A DNA stretch of 64,000 nt, taken from positions 1-64,000 of the forward strand of contig JALDRK010000009.1 of NCBI GenBank assembly GCA_031315915.1, in the 5' to 3' direction. Every line of letters begins with the position of its first letter. Position 1 is the first letter of the stretch. Position numbers and translations under genes: made by a program. The notes under the pieces were generated by a model. The model did not search any database. It saw nothing but the letters and a program-made list of their open reading frames with translations, and had not been told where the DNA came from. Below are positions 5,986 to 61,107 of the stretch, piece by piece. Source of the stretch: Nitrospirales bacterium (GTDB lineage: Bacteria; Nitrospirota; Nitrospiria; Nitrospirales; UBA8639).

Positions 5986-7773
5986 TCAGGTTGGCCGTGC
6001 AAAGAGGGTCTGTAACTCTTGAACAGAATGGCGGAGGGCAATCCGACGTCCATGAGGACAGGTCATGGGAAAGCGTTCTTGTGCCCAATCCTGGAGAAGA
6101 GTATGAATCTCCGGGTGTGACATGGCCCGTCCGGCCTGGACGGCGCATTGACAGGCCATCGTGGCAAAAATCGGTCGAAGGGCTTTTTCCAGTGAATCCT
6201 GTGAACGCCATTCGGTGAGTTCTTCCAGCAATTCCATGACCAACGGACCTACGGATACCGATCCCAATATTGAAGGGACGCTACGGACAACGTAGGCGGT
6301 TTGACCAAATCGCTCAATCTGCAATCCGACTTTTTCGAAGGTGGGCAGCCATTCCTCTAATTGGCTCTGTTGATGGGGAGGGAGTTCAAGAGGCTCAGGG
6401 ATCAACAGACCTTGTTGGGAGAGTTCACGGTTGGCCCAGTTGCGTAACAGTCGTTCAAAGAGGACCCGTTCGTGAGCGGTATGTTGATCGATAATATAGA
6501 GATCGTCGTCAATTTGGCCCAAGAGATACGTGTGGTGAATTTGACCAAGTGGATAAATCGAACAAGGCTGTTCTGGCGAAGCGTAGGGCGTAGTTGGTTC
6601 CTGCACCAATAACGATAAAGCCCTGCCGGTCGGAGTGGATGTGGGAGAATGGCCTGCTGATCTCGTGTTGGAGGAAGCGGGAGACCAGAAGGATGGCTTC
6701 AATCCGCGTGATGTGACAGGTTCGGTCAGAGTGATTTCCGGAGTTTCCCGCAGGAAAGTCTTTTGGGTTGGAGCCTCAAAAAAAACATTTTTTATGGCTT
6801 GGCGGATCCCGCTATGGATGATCTCCGGTCGTGAAAATCGTACTTCACGTTTGGTGGGGTGAACATTGACATCCAGGCTATCAGGATCAAGAGTCAGGAA
6901 AAGAATGTATTGTGGTTGTCGACCTTTGGGGAGAAACGACCCATAGCCTTCCTGAATGGCATGCGCAATGGTCGAATTCTTGACTGCCCGACGATTGACG
7001 AAAATTTCTTGGGGGGATCTGGTATTTCTGGCGAAATGGGGACTCACGGTAAATCCTGCTAACTGGACCCCCTGACTCTGATGGGCCAGAGGGACATACC
7101 GCTCGAGAAAAGCCGTTCCGTAAACTTGTAATAACCGATCTTGTGTCGTGGTGGCCGTCGGATACTCAAAGACCTTATTTCCTTGATGAAATAACCGGAA
7201 GTGAACGGTTGGATTGACCAACGCGGCTTGTTGCACCACATAACAGATTTTAGAAAATTCGGTAGGAACGGATTTGAGAAATTTGAGCCGTCCCGGGGTG
7301 TTGAAAAAGACATCCCGGACTTCAATTTCCGTTCCTCGGGTTCCCGCAAAATCCTGGATGTCCCAGGTGGTTCCCCCGATCGACGAGGTTTCAGTTCCGA
7401 CGGGGGAGTCTGGGGGGATAGTTTTGAGACGAAAGCGCGAAATTGAAGCGATGCTGGGTAAGGCTTCCCCACGGAATCCGAGCGTATTCAGATGGTGGAG
7501 ATCGTTTTCATGGCGGAGTTTACTGGTGGCAAACCGCTGACAAGACAGTTGGGCATCGGAACGACTCATGCCCTCTCCATTGTCAATGATACGGATAAGC
7601 CGGCGCCCGCCTTCCTCCACTTCGATGGTGATCAGTGTGCTGCCGGCATCGAGGCTGTTCTCCAGTAATTCCTTGACGACCGAAGCGGGACGTTCCACCA
7701 CTTCTCCTGCCGCAATACGACAGGAAACATCGTCAGGAAGGACCTGAATTTTCCCCTGAGCTGGTGAGTGCAT
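5986..7773 (-). CDS. mutL: DNA mismatch repair protein MutL
   Basis: 595 residues. The N-terminal GHL ATPase shows all hallmarks: ENSLDAGST with the catalytic Glu and Asn, DNGEGM, and GFRGEALPSI. The C-terminal dimerisation domain carries an endonuclease-type motif DQHTAHERVLFE (consensus DQHAxxExxxxE, here Thr for Ala), MACQCAV and CPHGRR. These features suggest a MutL that nicks DNA itself, as in organisms lacking MutH, rather than the E. coli type. It couples mismatch recognition by MutS to strand removal in the cytoplasm. It is the first gene of a mutL-miaA unit. Confidence 0.93.
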   Translation of the reverse strand: MHSPAQGKIQVLPDDVSCRIAAGEVVERPASVVKELLENSLDAGSTLITIEVEEGGRRLIRIIDNGEGMSRSDAQLSCQRFATSKLRHENDLHHLNTLGFRGEALPSIASISRFRLKTIPPDSPVGTETSSIGGTTWDIQDFAGTRGTEIEVRDVFFNTPGRLKFLKSVPTEFSKICYVVQQAALVNPTVHFRLFHQGNKVFEYPTATTTQDRLLQVYGTAFLERYVPLAHQSQGVQLAGFTVSPHFARNTRSPQEIFVNRRAVKNSTIAHAIQEGYGSFLPKGRQPQYILFLTLDPDSLDVNVHPTKREVRFSRPEIIHSGIRQAIKNVFFEAPTQKTFLRETPEITLTEPVTSRGLKPSFWSPASSNTRSAGHSPTSTPTGRALSLLVQEPTTPYASPEQPCSIYPLGQIHHTYLLGQIDDDLYIIDQHTAHERVLFERLLRNWANRELSQQGLLIPEPLELPPHQQSQLEEWLPTFEKVGLQIERFGQTAYVVRSVPSILGSVSVGPLVMELLEELTEWRSQDSLEKALRPIFATMACQCAVQAGRAMSHPEIHTLLQDWAQERFPMTCPHGRRIALRHSVQELQTLFARPT

Positions 7774-7845
7774 AGTCGAGAACGAGAAGTGGATGAGACG
7801 ACGGTCTAGTCTCTCGTCAACGCGAAACCTACCACCTTTGAGAGG

Positions 7846-8763
7846 CTAGGACAAGCCTGACTTTTTCAATTGTTCCTTGGCGTGTGTGGCTTCAGGGGAT
7901 TCGGGAAATTCTTGAATGACTCGATTCCAGAATTCCTGAGCCTTCGTCCGTTGGTCGGTTTCCAACATGAGTTGACCGAGCTTGTAGAGAGCGGATATCC
8001 GGTATTTATTATTAGGATAGCTCGTCACCACATGTTCGAGGGTTTGTTTGGCGGGATCGTATTGTTTTTGAAAATACTGAGATTCGCCCAGGTAATAAAA
8101 GGCTTGAGGGGTCAAAGTCGTATCGGGATAATGTTTCACGAAGCGCTGGAATTCTACGGACGCTCGCTCATAATTTCCATTCAGGTACACTTTATAGGCC
8201 GACCGAAAGGCCGAGGCCTCGTTTTCGGTATTGGGGGCTGCGGGGGGATCCACGGGTTTATTTAAATCTGTCGTCGTTGCCCCGTTCCCTGAATTAGACG
8301 ATGGCGCCCCCGGAGAGATGCCCTCAACAGGGGTAGATCTGGGTTGGTGCACCATGTTATCCAGACGGCTTTCCAGAGCCTTGACGCGAATGGAGAGGTC
8401 TTGGTCTCTTCGCTGGGTCGTCATCCGGGTTTGCTCGATTTGTTCCCGAAGCATATTGCTGGTTCGCTCAAGTTTTTCAAGAAGGTGGCGGGTATCGAGG
8501 CTGGCTTCCTCTTCGGTTTTGATCAATTCCCCCACGAGAAAGTCATGCTCATCCAATTGCGATTCGATGGTACCGAGCCGTTCCCGCGCTTGCTGTTCGT
8601 GTTTTTGAGTCGCCTCTTGTTGGATGGTCAGCAGTTGTAGCTGCTTTTGGATATCGGTCAAGTTTGGTTCGGTGGCACAACCGGAAAAAACCACGACCCA
8701 GCTCAATAGGCCAATCCTCCATGATTGGAATGGGTTTACGGGGAGATGGGATAATACCTTCAT
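7846..8763 (-). CDS. cpoB: Tol-Pal system TPR protein CpoB/YbgF, lipoprotein form
   Basis: 305 residues. The signal peptide ends in a lipobox-like VFSGC, so the protein is probably lipid-anchored, unlike the soluble E. coli protein. Residues about 35-145 form a coiled coil (trimerisation region). A Pro/Ser/Gly-rich linker follows. Three TPR-like repeats end the protein (YKVYLNGNYERASVEFQRFV, YYLGESQYFQKQYDPAKQTL, YKLGQLMLETDQRTKAQEFW). In E. coli CpoB tunes peptidoglycan synthesis to Tol-Pal-driven outer-membrane constriction. It lies at the 3' end of the tol-pal operon, which supports the call. Confidence 0.88.
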   Translation of the reverse strand: MKVLSHLPVNPFQSWRIGLLSWVVVFSGCATEPNLTDIQKQLQLLTIQQEATQKHEQQARERLGTIESQLDEHDFLVGELIKTEEEASLDTRHLLEKLERTSNMLREQIEQTRMTTQRRDQDLSIRVKALESRLDNMVHQPRSTPVEGISPGAPSSNSGNGATTTDLNKPVDPPAAPNTENEASAFRSAYKVYLNGNYERASVEFQRFVKHYPDTTLTPQAFYYLGESQYFQKQYDPAKQTLEHVVTSYPNNKYRISALYKLGQLMLETDQRTKAQEFWNRVIQEFPESPEATHAKEQLKKSGLS

Positions 8764-55054: not shown

Positions 55055-56113
55055 TCATACCCCATCCTCCAGGATTCTGGCGATTTGCTCAGGGCTGGGG
55101 AGTTGGCCTTTGAGCGCCTTGGGCAGTCGCTTGACGATCTGGTAGGTGGCGACGCCGATGGGCTTGTCGGCGGGCATCAAGGCGTATTCCACAATGGTGC
55201 GCTTTTTCTCCTTGCAGAGGATGATGCCGATGGCTGGATGTTCGCCCTCTTCGCGCACCTGTCTGTCCAGGGCGGTGAGGTAGAACTGCATCTTGCCGAC
55301 AAACTCGGGCTCGAAATCGCCGATCTTAAGTTCAATGGCCACCAGGCATTTGAGCCTGCGATGGAACAGCAGCAGGTCAATGAAATACTCTTTCCCCTCG
55401 ACCTCCAGGCGGAACTGGCTGCCCACAAACGTGAACATCCCGCCCATGGCCCGAAGAAAATCCTCGATGCGGCCGATCAAGGCGCGTTCCAATTCGCGCT
55501 CCGAATGCTTTTCACCTAATTCCAGAAAATCGAAGGTGTATTCGTCCCTGACGGCGAGCTTGGCTTGGGCGCGTAATTCCGGGGTGAGCGTCTTGTTAAA
55601 ATTGGTCTGGCCCAAGAGGCTTTTCTCGTAACTCTGGTTTTCGATCTGATGGATCAACACATTCTTCGACCAGCCGAACTTGCGGGTCATGCGCAGGTAG
55701 AATTCCCGTTCAAGGAGATCCTTGCACTTGCTCATGATGGCGAGGTTGTGCGCCCAGGCAATTTCTCCAACCAGTGGTTGGAGTCTTTCGTTGTCATGGT
55801 ATTCCGCATAAAACTGTCGCATGTACCAGAGGTTCTGAACCGAAAACCCACCCACGCCAGGGAATTCCTGCCGCAGGTCGTTGGACAGCTGCTCGACTAC
55901 GGATTTGCCCCAACCTTCGGTGGTCTGGCGTTCGATGATGATTCGCCCGATATCCCAGTACAGCCCGACCAGTTGTTTGTTGACCGACTTCAGGGCCGCA
56001 TATTGGGCTCTGCGAATCCGTTCTTTGATTTCCGCGAACGCTGTTGCGTAGGCTGCGGGCTTTTCCCCATTCGCCGATCTGGTCAGGCTGGATGTCTTCC
56101 TTTTTCCCTTCAT
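55055..56113 (-). CDS. DUF1016/PDDEXK nuclease-domain protein (YhcG type)
   Basis: 352 residues. An N-terminal helical domain (DUF1016_N, about 25-170) precedes a C-terminal PD-(D/E)xK nuclease fold. That fold has the Asp in KEYFIDLLLFH and the Glu-x-Lys in LVAIELKIGDF. It is often seen inside type I restriction loci, where its role is not settled. Its start overlaps the hsdM 3' frame by 4 bases (ATGA), so it is part of the same operon. Confidence 0.88.
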   Translation of the reverse strand: MKGKRKTSSLTRSANGEKPAAYATAFAEIKERIRRAQYAALKSVNKQLVGLYWDIGRIIIERQTTEGWGKSVVEQLSNDLRQEFPGVGGFSVQNLWYMRQFYAEYHDNERLQPLVGEIAWAHNLAIMSKCKDLLEREFYLRMTRKFGWSKNVLIHQIENQSYEKSLLGQTNFNKTLTPELRAQAKLAVRDEYTFDFLELGEKHSERELERALIGRIEDFLRAMGGMFTFVGSQFRLEVEGKEYFIDLLLFHRRLKCLVAIELKIGDFEPEFVGKMQFYLTALDRQVREEGEHPAIGIILCKEKKRTIVEYALMPADKPIGVATYQIVKRLPKALKGQLPSPEQIARILEDGV

Positions 56114-56586
56114 ACCCCCAGCTCCTCAAAATTCTTTTTGATGGTGGCTGCCAGGGTGACCGCCTCGGTGTTGAGATCTTCCAGTTCCACATGGATTTCA
56201 CGCAGGGTTTCCTCGAAGTCAAAATTTTCGTCTACTTCTTCAGGGGCGATGCCAACATAGCGGCCGGGAGTGAGGCTCCAGTCGTTGGCTTCTATCTCCT
56301 TCATGTCCACCAGTTTGACCAGGCCTTCCACGTCGCGCAGTTTGGCCTCGGGGAAGCGTTCGGTGAGCCAGTGGGCCTGTTTCCAGAAGTAGCGCATAAG
56401 CTTGAGTTGCTCGACGGCCAGTCCGCGTGCTTCGTCGGCAGCCTTCCGGGCGCGGGTGATGTCACGGCTGGCCCAGGCATCGCTCTCTTTTGCGTTACAC
56501 TCGTTTTCGCAGGTGTCGATGAGGCGAGTGGCGAGTTTGTAGATGAGGTCGGTCTGTTTGATTAGGTCGCGGCTGGTTTCCGCCAT
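56110..56586 (-). CDS. HsdM C-terminal part in a separate frame
   Basis: 158 residues. They match the C-terminus of long HsdM methylases: QLKLMRYFWKQAHWLTERFP, NDWSLTPGRYVGIAPEEVDE and DFEETLREIHVELEDLNTEA. The ATG ending at 56586 may be a real start of a split subunit or just the first Met after a frameshift; the frame is open for some codons upstream. DUF1016 overlaps its stop by 4 bases. Confidence 0.75.
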   Translation of the reverse strand: MAETSRDLIKQTDLIYKLATRLIDTCENECNAKESDAWASRDITRARKAADEARGLAVEQLKLMRYFWKQAHWLTERFPEAKLRDVEGLVKLVDMKEIEANDWSLTPGRYVGIAPEEVDENFDFEETLREIHVELEDLNTEAVTLAATIKKNFEELGV

Positions 56587-56753
56587 GGGTTCAAACTCGT
56601 TTGTGAGCTTGTTATGTTGCGTTGGTGGCGGGGCGAAGCCTCCATTGTTTGGCGGGTTTGCTGGGCGAAGCGTTGAACTGCTCGGATGTCTTGCTCGAAC
56701 TGTGCGGTTTCATGATCGAGTTCCTTGACGAGTTCTGTTAGCCTCACCTCCAC
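56562..56753 (-). pseudogene. Middle piece of hsdM in a third frame
   Basis: 63 codons between the long N-terminal and the C-terminal hsdM frames. It reads VRLTELVKELDHETAQFEQD and so on, a coiled-coil linker expected in HsdM. It begins at a GTG overlapping the previous stop by 10 bases and ends inside the next frame. One base lost near 56745 would break the first joint. The second joint is less clear. Confidence 0.55.
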
Positions 56754-58258
56754 TCTGGCTTTCTTCTGCCTCTTGGCGAGGGAGTAGTTTCCTCTTTGAA
56801 AAACGTTCGAGAGTGTTCCGCAAAAGCTTTCATCGCCTCGGTAAAGGCCGGCAGGGGCTGGAATGTCTGGCCCAGGTCGTCCTTGATTTCGAAACAGGCT
56901 TGGGCTTCGTCGGCGACCTGGCCGAGGTACTGCGAGACCAGTTGCAGGTAGCGGTCGGTCTCGTTCCGGTAGAGCCAGACGATGGCTTGCAGATTTTGTT
57001 GCTGCTCGGGACTAAAATCGTAGATCTTGCGTGTGACCTTGTGGTAGACGTTGCGCGCGTCGATCATGAGCACTTTGTCTTTGTGGGCCTTGGGTTTGTT
57101 GCGGTTTAAGAACCACAGCTCGCAGGGCACGGTGCGGGTGTAGAAGAAGTTAGAGCGGATGGCGATCATGACGTCCACGTCCCCGGTTTCCACCAGCTTT
57201 TGCCGAACCTTGGCCTCACCGCCCCCGGCGCTGGAGGCCTGAGAGGACATGACGAAGCCGGCTCGGCCTTTGTCATTTAGATAGCTGTAGAAGTAGCTGA
57301 TCCAAATGTAGTTGCCGTTGCTGACCTTGCCTCCCTTATTGACGCCGGGCAGGCCGAAGGGCAGGCGCGGGTCGGATTTGACCTTGTCGGCGTCGATCTC
57401 ATCCACGTTGAATGGCGGATTGGCCATGACGTAGTCGACCTTGCCGACCAGTTCGTGCGATTTTTCATGGTAGTAAGTGATGGCCTTCTGGATATCGCCT
57501 TCCAGGCCGTGGACGGCCAGATTCATTTTGGCCAGGCGGATGGTGGTGGGGTTTTTCTCCAGGCCGCGGAAGGTGAGTTTTTCCGTGGGGCTGTCGCCGT
57601 GCTCTTCGACAATGCGGGCGCTCTGCACAAACATGCCGCCGGAACCGCAGGCCGGGTCCAGCACGGTGCCGCGCTCGGGATCGAGCACATGGGCGATGAG
57701 CGAGACCAGGGAGACGGGGGTGAAGAACTCGCCGCCATCGTGGGCCTTCTGATCGGCAAACTGGGTGAGGAAGTATTCGTAGATGCGGCCAAAGACATCG
57801 CCTTTGACGGTTTTCAGCTCCTCGGGGTTGAGCGTTCGCAGCAACTGGGCGAGCACCTCTTTCCCCAGCTCCTGATATTCGCTTTTGGGCAGCATCCCGC
57901 GTAGGTTGTCGTAATCCTTTTCAATGGACTCCATGGCCTCGATGATGGCCTTGGCCCGATCGGCGCTGTTGGGCAAGGATACGAGATAGTCGAACTGCGC
58001 CTGCGGGTGCAGAAAAATGGCACCCTGCTGGGAAAAGTCCTCCTTGGTCAGCGCACGCGTCTTGCCGCCGCGGCTGGGAAGCGTCGGCTCGATCTTCGCT
58101 TTCACCGCGAGATAGCGGCTATAGGCGTATCGGAGAAACACCAGGCCCATGACCGGCAGGAAGTATTCATTGCTGGCGTAGTTGGAGTTGGCGCGCAGGC
58201 TGTCGGCGGCGCTCCAGAGGCGTGTTTCAATCGCTTCGATGTGTTCGAGTTGGGACAT
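56744..58258 (-). CDS. hsdM: Type I DNA methyltransferase HsdM, N-terminal and catalytic part
   Basis: 504 residues: an N-terminal helical domain (HsdM_N, about 5-130), then the N6-adenine methylase fold. S-adenosylmethionine motif DPACGSGGMF is at 201-210 and the catalytic NPPF at 280-283. The frame ends at a TGA after RRKPEWR. Intact relatives continue about 250 residues, and the missing parts follow in two other frames. The catalytic core is whole, so activity is possible if the pieces assemble. It is the first gene of the restriction operon, transcribed away from the AbiEi gene. Confidence 0.88.
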   Translation of the reverse strand: MSQLEHIEAIETRLWSAADSLRANSNYASNEYFLPVMGLVFLRYAYSRYLAVKAKIEPTLPSRGGKTRALTKEDFSQQGAIFLHPQAQFDYLVSLPNSADRAKAIIEAMESIEKDYDNLRGMLPKSEYQELGKEVLAQLLRTLNPEELKTVKGDVFGRIYEYFLTQFADQKAHDGGEFFTPVSLVSLIAHVLDPERGTVLDPACGSGGMFVQSARIVEEHGDSPTEKLTFRGLEKNPTTIRLAKMNLAVHGLEGDIQKAITYYHEKSHELVGKVDYVMANPPFNVDEIDADKVKSDPRLPFGLPGVNKGGKVSNGNYIWISYFYSYLNDKGRAGFVMSSQASSAGGGEAKVRQKLVETGDVDVMIAIRSNFFYTRTVPCELWFLNRNKPKAHKDKVLMIDARNVYHKVTRKIYDFSPEQQQNLQAIVWLYRNETDRYLQLVSQYLGQVADEAQACFEIKDDLGQTFQPLPAFTEAMKAFAEHSRTFFKEETTPSPRGRRKPEWR

Positions 58259-58485
58259 GTCGGTTTGGGTTCTCGTTAGTTGGCGGTGGTGTCAGCCATT
58301 TAGTTTGCTGGTGCTTATTTTGTGGTCCCTTAAGGGCGACCTTTCGCGAACTGTTTGTTTGGTGCTTCGCTCTATCCTGCGAAATTTAATGAAATATACC
58401 ATTTGGCAGTTATATTTCCAGCAAAAATCTCGCTCTGGGTATCCGGAAGACTGGTAGGGAAACACTTTTGTTCACTAATTTATAT

Positions 58486-58504
58486 TGTTCATGTTTCATG
58501 AACA
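58486..58504. promoter_or_regulatory. Palindromic operator in front of the AbiEi gene
   Basis: Perfect inverted repeat TGTTCATG TTT CATGAACA. The half-site GAACATG recurs 17 bases further on at 58517-58523, over the AbiEi start codon. A likely -10 (TATAAC, 58511-58516) lies between. AbiEi antitoxins of the type IV systems repress their own promoter through inverted repeats, so autoregulation is the natural reading. The hsdM promoter must also lie in this 260-base divergent gap. Confidence 0.6.
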
Positions 58505-58520
58505 TGATACTATAACGAAC

Positions 58521-59621
58521 ATGAAGATAGGGGGAAAGGATATTAACCTTGTCAATGCCGCCCTGGAGCGGTTGAAGGCCGTCCATCCAGTCCAGGTCAA
58601 GAATCTGGTGATTCGAGGAGAGCGGCAAGGCTCATGTCGGATGGGATGGCGAGGTGACGCTGAAACCGCTCAGGGCACGGTCAGTTACGTTTTTGAAGCC
58701 AGCTTCACATCTGGAGGCCTGGAGGCGGTTCGTCACCTCCTCATTCAGGCCAAGACTGCAGGGCAGCCCAACAAGTCCAAAGGGATTTTATTGTTGGCCG
58801 ATTACGTCAACCCCTCCTTGGGGCAACAACTCAGGGAAGCTGACATCAATTTCATCGATACGGCTGGAAATGTATTCTTACAGCAAGAGCCCGGCTTGCA
58901 CCTTTACGTTGAGGGGAAGAAACTCCAAACTCCTGCGAAGGAAGCACCAACGCGCCTGTTTCAACCGAGTGGGCTGACCCTACTCTTTGGCCTTCTGGTG
59001 ACACCGGAGTCAGTGAATAGGTCCTATCGTGATCTGGCCAAAGCGAACGGTGTTGCGTTGGGGACGGTCGGTTGGATTATGCGCGACCTCCGTGAACAAG
59101 GATATGTCGAACCTCTGGGGAAGGACCGAATTCAACTTATCCGAAAAAAAGAGCTTCTTGACCGCTGGGTTGATGGCTATGCGACGCGGCTTCGGCCCAA
59201 AATACTTGCAGGAGAATTTGTATTGGACCCGACAAAAGATTTTGATTCGGTCATGGATGGATTTGAAAACTATGCCTTTGAGCAAAACATGCAGTGGGGC
59301 CTTACGGGAGGTTTTGGCGCCTTTGAACTCTTGCACCATTACCGGGGGATGACCCTTTCCATTTTTATTGAAAAATGGAGCTCTTATACTGCCCTCGCAG
59401 CCCTTCATTTACTTCCACATGAGGGAGGATGGGAAAGTGCTTCAAAGTTTCTCGCCTCAAGTATTTGGGAAAACCGCCAGACAGAGCCGGACACCCGGTG
59501 GTTCGCCATCCCTTTACTTGTCTATGCCGAATTAGAGCAGCTTCAAGGTGGCGACCGCGAACTTGAAGCGGGTCGCCACCTTTATACGACTTTCCTGGAG
59601 GAGTCCCTTGCCAAAGATTGA
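58521..59621 (+). CDS. abiEi: Type IV antitoxin/transcription repressor, AbiEi family
   Basis: 366 residues from the ATG at 58521; an earlier in-frame ATG would take in the operator. A central winged helix-turn-helix (SYRDLAKANGVALGTVGWIM) sits behind an N-terminal alpha/beta region (ADYVNPSLGQQLREADINF). This is the AbiEi-like arrangement that represses transcription and neutralises the AbiEii nucleotidyltransferase toxin. Its stop overlaps the start of the toxin remnant. The antitoxin itself is undamaged. Confidence 0.78.
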   Translation: MKIGGKDINLVNAALERLKAVHPVQVKNLVIRGERQGSCRMGWRGDAETAQGTVSYVFEASFTSGGLEAVRHLLIQAKTAGQPNKSKGILLLADYVNPSLGQQLREADINFIDTAGNVFLQQEPGLHLYVEGKKLQTPAKEAPTRLFQPSGLTLLFGLLVTPESVNRSYRDLAKANGVALGTVGWIMRDLREQGYVEPLGKDRIQLIRKKELLDRWVDGYATRLRPKILAGEFVLDPTKDFDSVMDGFENYAFEQNMQWGLTGGFGAFELLHHYRGMTLSIFIEKWSSYTALAALHLLPHEGGWESASKFLASSIWENRQTEPDTRWFAIPLLVYAELEQLQGGDRELEAGRHLYTTFLEESLAKD

Positions 59622-60192: not shown

Positions 60193-60423
60193 TTAGGCCA
60201 AGATGTTAACCGCCATGCCTCTGCGAGAGGCTCTGAACTTGGTGAGAGTGATTTCTTGGACATACTTGAGAATGCTCATTTCCGTACTGCTAACCGTTAC
60301 GACCAAACCTCGCTGTTTGTTTTGATTTCTTTGCGTGAGGGTGATGGTGCCTTCCCCATCGATTATTCCTGCGAGATAGCCTGCATCCAGGGGTGACCGT
60401 GTTTTTACAGTTAGGTAGGTCAT
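60193..60423 (-). pseudogene. Truncated LAGLIDADG homing endonuclease
   Basis: 76 codons beginning MTYLTVKTRSPLDAGYLAG, with the signature YLAGIIDGEGTITLTQR (LAGLIDGEG version). It then shows VTVSSTEMSILKYVQEI and stops. A working single-motif enzyme needs about 130 residues or more, so the C-terminal half is missing. It lies 37 bases beyond the tmRNA terminator on the same strand. Such enzymes often move group I introns, and one interrupts the adjacent tmRNA, but this piece lies outside the intron. Confidence 0.7.
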
Positions 60424-60459: not shown

Positions 60460-60495
60460 AAAAAAAAGGCCTCTGGATCGTGTGATCCAGAGGCC
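60460..60495 (-). terminator. Rho-independent terminator of tmRNA
   Basis: Perfect 12-base stem GGCCTCTGGATC with a GTGT loop. It is followed on the minus strand by eight T, starting three bases after the CCA end of tmRNA. Confidence 0.93.
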
Positions 60496-60498
60496 GAT

Positions 60499-61107
60499 TG
60501 GTGGAGGTGAGGGGACGGATGTTCCATGCTTTTCAGCGTGGGCCGGACTATGCCTTCATCCACGTGGGATGCGGGGCGTCTTAGCATCGAATGATGCTCC
60601 GAGTGCCCGCTCATCTGACGACCAGCGGGTCTCTGAGTCTCTACAGGGCCAAAGAAGTTAGCCTTCTTCGACCCCTCGGCGTTGCCATGGCCCGGTGTGT
60701 CCGAGCGGTAGGGTTCACCGAATGAGCCCCGTGTTCACCCGAGGATTGCTCCCCGGGGCGACCATGTTTGTTAATCGAACCCCTGTCCGAGAACATTCAG
60801 CGCAACAGCCCTACGTGTGTAGCCGATGATTTGTTATTCGCAGTTGCCCACGCCCACCGACCGGCTTAGAGCACCCGCTAGCCCAGAATGTTCTCGTCCG
60901 CCGCCGCTGAGCACCGGCATTGGACCAGCCTGCAGTGTGACGCCCCTTCCTCACCCGCAGGCAAAGAAAGGAGGGACGTCGCGGTCAATTAAGCCGCGAG
61001 AGCCAAGTTATCGTTGGCACTTAATGTTTTCCCGAAGGTTTTACGAGACTCCGAGAGCTCGACACGCTCTGTTGACCTCTTGATTCCCGTCGAAGCCAGT
61101 CACCCCC
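60499..61107 (-). ncRNA. ssrA: tmRNA (ssrA), interrupted by a group I intron
   Basis: The 5' end at 61107 reads GGGGGTGACTGGCTTCGACG. The acceptor 5' strand GGGGGTG pairs with CACCTCC just before the encoded ACCA (60499-60509). The tag reading frame is at 60989-61018: GCC AAC GAT AAC TTG GCT, then CTC GCG GCT and TAA, giving ANDNLALAA. The T-stem AGGGG/CCCCT encloses loop TTCGATT, but 258 bases are inserted in that loop. Removing them gives a mature RNA of 351 nt, the normal size. tmRNA frees stalled ribosomes and tags the unfinished protein. The order of parts is standard, not permuted. Confidence 0.95.
60516..60773 (-). ncRNA. Group I intron (IC3-like) inside the T-loop of tmRNA
   Basis: 258 nt. 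The 5' exon ends TTCGAT and the intron starts with T after it. The intron ends CATCCG, followed by TCCCCTCACC. This gives U before the 5' cut and G as last base, both required for group I. The internal guide GTCG pairs with the exon CGAT with a U-G wobble at the cut. Core pieces match those I recall from the Azoarcus tRNA-Ile intron: GGCAACGCCGAG (60675-60686), GTAGAGACT (60636-60644, P7 5' side) and AAGGCATAGTCC (60545-60556, P7 3' side). It carries no open frame. Confidence 0.92.

Follow-up and report, generated by a model that had tools for sequence, protein, structure and literature searches.

The tmRNA gene (ssrA) of a Nitrospirales bacterium is interrupted in its T loop by a 258-nt insert that is well supported as a group I intron, and just past the end of the gene lies the remnant of a LAGLIDADG homing-endonuclease gene. 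Both occur in a stretch of 64,000 nucleotides, hereafter the window. The best explanation, to which we give a probability of roughly 0.7, is that a T-loop group I intron and a separate LAGLIDADG endonuclease are partners in collaborative homing, and that the endonuclease of this pair is truncated in the window.

The interrupted ssrA gene and its intron

The window has a complete ssrA on the minus strand (61107-60499). The tmRNA covariance model (RF00023) matches it with 147.2 bits (E 8.2e-58; minus strand, 61100-60772), and the match ends inside the T arm. The acceptor pairs a 5' strand GGGGGTG with a 3' strand CACCTCC, followed by ACCA, and the missing 3' end of the gene, TCCCCTCACCTCCACCA, is found 258 nt further on. 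ARAGORN calls no tmRNA in the unspliced window. Once the 258 nt are deleted in silico, which leaves TTCGATT closed by AGGGG/CCCCT, it calls a tmRNA with the tag ANDNLALAA, also read directly from the sequence. The features are as follows.

60774-61107, minus strand: ssrA 5' exon, 334 nt, from the acceptor 5' strand to T-loop base 6 (TTCGAT); RF00023, 147.2 bits
60989-61018, minus strand: tag reading frame, ANDNLALAA and stop; sequence, and ARAGORN on the spliced form
60516-60773, minus strand: well-supported group I intron, 258 nt, T-loop position 7; RF00028 at 26.2 bits, model R1, covariation
60759-60762, minus strand: internal guide GTCG, which pairs with CGAT of the exon (P1, with U.G at the cut); sequence and homologous introns
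60635-60642, minus strand: P7 5' strand region AGAGACTC; four P7 pairs invariant in 31 of 31 introns
60545-60551, minus strand: P7 3' strand region ATAGTCC; invariant P7 pairs
60524-60541, minus strand: P9 hairpin with GAAA loop; alignment-based structure
60499-60515, minus strand: ssrA 3' exon, 17 nt, with the last T-loop base, T-stem 3' strand, acceptor 3' strand and ACCA
60468-60495, minus strand: terminator-like hairpin with a T run after it, separating ssrA from the endonuclease gene; 12-bp perfect inverted repeat
60244-60423, minus strand: truncated LAGLIDADG homing-endonuclease gene, first about 59-60 codons, the open frame continuing to 60193; PF14528

An earlier reading of the sequence alone had placed here an ssrA complete at both ends with this tag, split by a group I intron whose removal would restore TTCGATT and a 351-nt RNA. 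Its coordinates, splice sites and sizes are correct to the base, and the tmRNA model that it had named as a check breaks off in the T arm, as given above. The insertion point, TTCGAT^T, lies between T-loop bases 6 and 7, with U before the 5' cut and G as the last intron base. We found ssrA interrupted at the same site in 45 loci, window included, which makes an assembly artefact unlikely. The terminal G is present in all 45 introns, and the guide GTCG lies within the first 26 nt in 43 of them (GTTG in the other two). In-silico removal of the intron leaves a recognisable tmRNA in each of the 45 loci; a 46th locus, L099, has no intron and is not among them. The insert with short flanks (60510-60785) is more stable than 200 of 200 shuffles (z -4.97). 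Chance and assembly artefact were rejected, since ssrA with its intron and the neighbouring endonuclease gene share the same arrangement in 40 loci.

The test with a group I model, named beforehand as one that could refute the intron, went against it if taken literally: the window intron is the best match of RF00028 in the 3.83-Mb genome (E 1.8e-4), but its 26.2 bits are below the gathering score of 50. None of 39 complete intron-bearing ssrA (52 loci scanned) reaches the gathering level, which four of four tested other Nitrospirota group I introns pass, and we judge the threshold rather than the intron to be at fault. These other introns (L116-L127) are of a different kind, present in 12 of 395 Nitrospirota genomes and scoring 27-35 bits with the tmRNA intron model. 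The four tested score 73-88 bits with RF00028. By eye their 3' flank resembles a tRNA anticodon arm; ARAGORN found no tRNA in the 12 loci.

Because the RF00028 score was below threshold, we looked for independent evidence in covariation. We aligned the 3' halves of 31 of the 45 tmRNA introns, the other 14 being two with a gene inside, four with long loops and eight set aside to limit redundancy. The aligned structure has what we take to be P7, P8, P9.0 and P9, with two further helices enclosed by the strands of P7. Both-sided changes occur in 22 of 33 tested pairs, with P7 invariant. Paired cells make up 95.4%, against 75.4% in shuffles and 25-38% when the structure is slid, figures biased in its favour because it was partly derived from the same alignment; P8 is partly misaligned, two of its pairs having 12 and 10 cells unpaired. 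A model built on these 31 sequences (R1), the window's own among them, gives 142.5 bits on the 3' half of the window intron with the 3' exon. The core had been likened to that of the Azoarcus tRNA-Ile intron. This stands for the P4- and P7-type motifs, whereas the two extra covarying helices between the P7 strands, which the Azoarcus intron is not known to have, led us to drop the Azoarcus type as the closest class.

T-loop position 7 group I introns of tmRNA were reportedly described by Williams in 2002. The portion used here of a 2025 database paper (PMC11915505) counts 883 intron-form tmRNAs, most of them at T-loop position 7, where they occur in 21 phyla; they have U before the cut (C in 15 exceptions) and G at the end, with a mean length of 293 nt over 843 founding introns. 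The site was thus known, as expected from the sequence alone, and is less rare than had been supposed there. By our own reading of the numbering in that paper (a passage and a figure legend), the window intron is a fresh instance at the already known main site, with the same gene, insertion base and U/G ends, and 258 nt against the mean of 293 nt. The endonuclease genes described there, in 36 of the 883 introns, lie inside the intron, whereas that of the window lies beyond ssrA and its terminator.

Among close relatives the intron has a patchy distribution. The comparison with uninterrupted ssrA, also proposed from the sequence, found three intronless genomes (g6) whose exon is 96-99% identical to the window's. 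The window genome, 91.6% complete, has one tmRNA over the cut-off, one SmpB (PF01668, 204.9 bits), two proteins of release-factor length and a short GGQ protein, called ArfB-like from its sequence rather than from a family search. Splicing of the window intron is probably needed for trans-translation. The sequence-only reading went too far in stating that ribosome rescue should fail without splicing: the GGQ protein, judged by its sequence, is a possible backup, so that the cell may not depend on the ribozyme.

The endonuclease gene beside ssrA

The endonuclease remnant (60423-60244) had been overlooked in the sequence-only reading. Its product starts MTYLTVK...DAGYLAGIIDGEGTITL, carries the LAGLIDADG_3 domain (PF14528; 26.9 bits, cut-off 22.5) and matches positions 1-60 of 150 of the full protein (E 1.5e-19). 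The gene begins on the far side of the terminator-like hairpin, 75 nt from the ssrA 3' end; the first 70 nt after ssrA fold with -30.4 kcal/mol. DNA homology to full-length relatives stops at about 60247, after some 59 of 150 codons, and the window holds no full-length copy, defined as at least 125 aa with a match reaching query residue 130. The nearest relative among the loci compared (L057, Nitrospiria bacterium Co_bin.365) shares with the window 338 of the 340 bases that lead to the splice site and 251 of the intron's 258; its endonuclease open frame spans 158 aa, against the truncated copy of the window. Because of this truncation the window intron is probably now immobile and still has to be spliced, and most likely it represents a late, immobile stage of its cycle. 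Elsewhere near ssrA (55055-59621), the window encodes an HsdM-type methyltransferase, a YhcG-family PDDEXK nuclease and a protein weakly matching AbiEi.

A scan of GTDB with five intact endonuclease proteins from Nitrospirota gave 53 loci. In 38 of these the endonuclease gene follows an intron-bearing ssrA on the same strand, outside the intron (37 are complete; in L088 the sequence begins within the intron, at the end of a contig). Judged by record title, most of these belong to Nitrospirota (6) and Gammaproteobacteria and some to Betaproteobacteria, and the gene is also found beside a split ssrA in named strains of Thiocapsa and Methylophaga. One of the loci, L065, is titled Anaerolineae, yet its tag (ANDDNYAL...) and intron type match Gammaproteobacteria, and it may be a misbinned contig. 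Two further loci, in Elusimicrobia (L091, L095), have a related LAGLIDADG gene at the same ssrA position (best segment 35-36% identical to the query), lying inside the intron between the P7 strands, whereas the window-type gene lies downstream of ssrA. Four loci adjoin an intronless ssrA: in L097 and L099 a broken endonuclease follows it, and in the Parcubacteria L073 and L093 an intact one points towards it (convergent; the ssrA of L093 was read by eye, with no Rfam scan). One locus (L072) has no ssrA in view, and there was no tmRNA match in the remaining eight (L098, L100-L106), seven of which are at 26-36% identity and one at 45%.

Some of these loci have features of their own. In the two Parcubacteria ssrA (minus strand), an A-U pair closes the T loop (GGATTCGATTTCC), against G-C in the intron-bearing loci; the A-U pair may have let these genes evade cutting, or may simply be characteristic of the group. 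Positions 1-700 of L099 hold tandem ssrA 3' ends, the second followed by the broken endonuclease, with an N run between them and a possible cause in assembly. An extra partial ssrA 3' end (TTCGATT...CCTCCACCA), similar to an att site, lies past the endonuclease at about 4470 in L064 and about 4440 in L092.

Forty loci can be read across the interval between the two genes: the 37 complete ones, the window, G017 and G042. In all 40 the endonuclease gene lies beside, not inside, the intron-bearing gene, as in collaborative homing, at 36-185 nt from ssrA (median 66.5). A stable fold (below -15 kcal/mol) separates the two genes in every case, with a T-run pattern in 31/40, and a Shine-Dalgarno-like motif precedes the endonuclease gene in 20/40. 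The endonuclease is full length in 31 of the 40. Among endonucleases on the same strand as ssrA, the intron accompanies 31 of 31 full-length copies and 9 of 11 broken ones, a contrast that is suggestive only.

Within Nitrospirota, we surveyed 395 genomes drawn from a larger group. Nine have the tmRNA intron (intron model above 134 bits) and eight the endonuclease, which is present in 6 of the 9 intron carriers and in 2 of the 386 others (Fisher p 4.6e-10). It was not found in the three other carriers, G242, G278 and G035, the contig of G035 ending 146 nt on. The two endonucleases outside carriers belong to G064, with an intronless ssrA like that of L097, and to G252, which has a displaced ssrA 3' end and a decayed intron half (59.7 bits with the intron model, counted as a relic and not as a carrier). 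The G252 locus (L041, 5946-9310) reads in order: an intronless ssrA, an endonuclease relic, a radical-SAM-like gene and a second gene (6654-8751, both named by eye), then the displaced 3' half of the T-loop intron with its 3' exon, a terminator and a broken endonuclease. The order suggests an insertion or replacement by which ssrA lost its intron.

The predicted structure of a full-length relative (pLDDT 89.4, pTM 0.82) has its best fold matches in I-CreI and I-MsoI (Foldseek E 4e-7, TM 0.70 to I-CreI), and I-MsoI is also the best sequence match. Both are single-motif enzymes of about 150 aa with the same fold as the ssrA-linked endonuclease, at about 20% identity. They are homodimers, and their genes lie inside introns of chloroplast rRNA genes, unlike the ssrA-adjacent gene. 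The ssrA-linked endonuclease, with its single motif, probably works as a homodimer too; an argument from a palindromic target was left out, the T stem being symmetric about a base and not about a step. In the four least diverged of nine endonuclease pairs, dN/dS is 0.13-0.26; three Nitrospira pairs are not independent, and dS is saturated in three of the nine.

Genus g2 offers a comparison of exons. The T stem reads AGGGG in its 4 intron carriers and GCGGG in its 8 intronless genomes, and identity between the two sets ranges over 0.92-1.00 in the exon and falls to 0.88 across the final 30 columns ahead of the insertion, a pattern such as co-conversion would leave. Elsewhere, intronless ssrA can also have AGGGG, and intron-bearing ssrA can have GCGGG.

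Histories of intron and endonuclease, and other readings

Trees and Mantel tests cover 32 of the 40 loci, those with an endonuclease of at least 125 aa (L076, the window and shorter copies are outside this set). The introns form two lineages, defined beforehand by a core motif and supported at 100/100. The endonuclease tree requires 6 changes of intron type, with strong support on only 4 of its 29 inner branches, and a single endonuclease clade for the second intron type is rejected (p-AU 2e-5). Endonuclease distances correlate more with those of the tmRNA exon (r 0.59) than with those of the intron (r 0.34), so that much of the association between intron and endonuclease may be descent at a shared locus. 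With the exon allowed for, the correlation with the intron is 0.24 (p 0.0002). Judging from these sequence comparisons, enzymes and introns seem to have been re-combined, with a residual link beyond the shared host gene. A single co-evolving unit is not favoured by the Mantel tests, the endonuclease tree or the p-AU; the best explanation for one endonuclease family combined with two intron lineages is that the two are separate genes.

The closer agreement of the endonuclease with the exon would also fit a homing endonuclease that stands on its own and has a different target at the ssrA 3' end or close to it, with the intron as a mere neighbour at a much-used locus. Genomic islands often integrate at ssrA, according to the portion of PMC11915505 used here, the Parcubacteria have the endonuclease alone beside an intronless ssrA, and the extra 3' ends of L064 and L092 are similar to att sites. 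We nevertheless consider this unlikely, given that the T arm is conserved whereas the sequence past the terminator varies, by eye, from locus to locus, that the association with the intron is strong in Nitrospirota, and that every full-length same-strand copy accompanies an intron. Some LAGLIDADG proteins are maturases, and this one matches, among others, the bI3 maturase in both sequence and fold. That it aids splicing and not mobility is very improbable all the same: G242 and G278 have an intron-bearing ssrA without the endonuclease, though their tmRNA must presumably be made; in the window and in 8 of the other 39 loci the gene is broken or shortened and tmRNA is presumably still made; and the best matches are the endonucleases I-CreI and I-MsoI. 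Such a gene, moreover, was counted inside only 36 of 883 tmRNA introns (PMC11915505, same portion).

The truncated gene of the window, which cannot make a full enzyme, could suggest that intron and remnant are inherited relics whose interplay has ended, with nothing beyond the known tmRNA introns. It is hard to reconcile with a full-length gene kept in 31 of 40 loci, with the low dN/dS of the pairs tested and with an intron absent from the three g6 genomes in spite of their nearly identical exon, and we regard it as a poor candidate. We give almost no credence to an insert that is not a functional group I intron, in an ssrA that would be a pseudogene: the RF00028 score under the cut-off speaks for it, against the covariation across homologous introns, the terminal G in 45 of 45, the exact restoration of the T loop on removal, and the fact that the genome encodes SmpB but no other tmRNA above the cut-off.

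Proposed mechanism and precedents

Collaborative homing with a LAGLIDADG partner thus remains our preferred reading. It is built on the anatomy, the recurring position of the gene, its association with the intron, the re-assortment and the low dN/dS. Against it count the three Nitrospirota carriers in which no endonuclease was found, the intact Parcubacteria copies next to an intronless ssrA, the small contrast between full-length and broken copies, the closer fit of the endonuclease to the exon, the few strong branches of its tree, and the Shine-Dalgarno-like motif in only half of the 40 loci. A Clostridium tmRNA intron is described, in the section used of PMC2729099, as earlier shown to self-splice, and on this ground we infer that the compact window intron would excise itself from the ssrA precursor and restore the T loop. 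Having no endonuclease gene of its own, the intron would have as its mobility partner the separate gene just past the ssrA terminator. The enzyme is predicted to cut intronless ssrA near the T-loop site, and the intron would shield the carrier chromosome from cutting. Repair from the carrier allele would then copy the intron and, with the flank, presumably the endonuclease gene.

Collaborative homing is described in these terms in the parts used of three papers (PMC6083498, PMC3984707, PMC10448857): a free-standing endonuclease cuts an intronless gene at the intron site, the intron blocks self-cutting, and repair spreads both. The closest case is the psbA intron of cyanophage S-PM2 with F-CphI (PMC6083498, in the part used), where, as at ssrA, an intron without endonuclease stands beside a separate endonuclease gene. 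F-CphI has an Endo VII motif and belongs to a phage, whereas the ssrA case involves a LAGLIDADG protein on bacterial chromosomes, an RNA gene and at least two phyla, with cleavage that is only predicted. Among the literature matches listed, which mostly leave subscription papers outside their scope, no report places an endonuclease beside an intron-bearing ssrA. We lean, with some reserve, towards regarding the ssrA system as chromosome-borne LAGLIDADG collaborative homing in at least two phyla, in which a free-standing endonuclease homes to the ssrA T arm and has been teamed separately with two ribozyme lineages. As for the vehicle of such spread, viruses were rejected as carriers (identity at most 43%, or 51-53% over short pieces, in 80 of 101 viral-contig loci), as were phages (39% identity at best among the matches listed, the best 20 of 24) and plasmids (no plasmid matches).

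How collaborative homing arises is not clear, and a turnover in which an intronic enzyme is lost and a free-standing one gained is an alternative (PMC10448857, in the part used). Each of the proposed stages seems to have a present-day representative in the wider family: the enzyme alone in Parcubacteria, beside the intron in Nitrospirota and Proteobacteria, inside it in Elusimicrobia, and in decay in the window. Since a single insertion site in ssrA would thus show all four situations, the order of events becomes testable. Some tmRNA introns that seem to have no endonuclease may have one just outside the gene.
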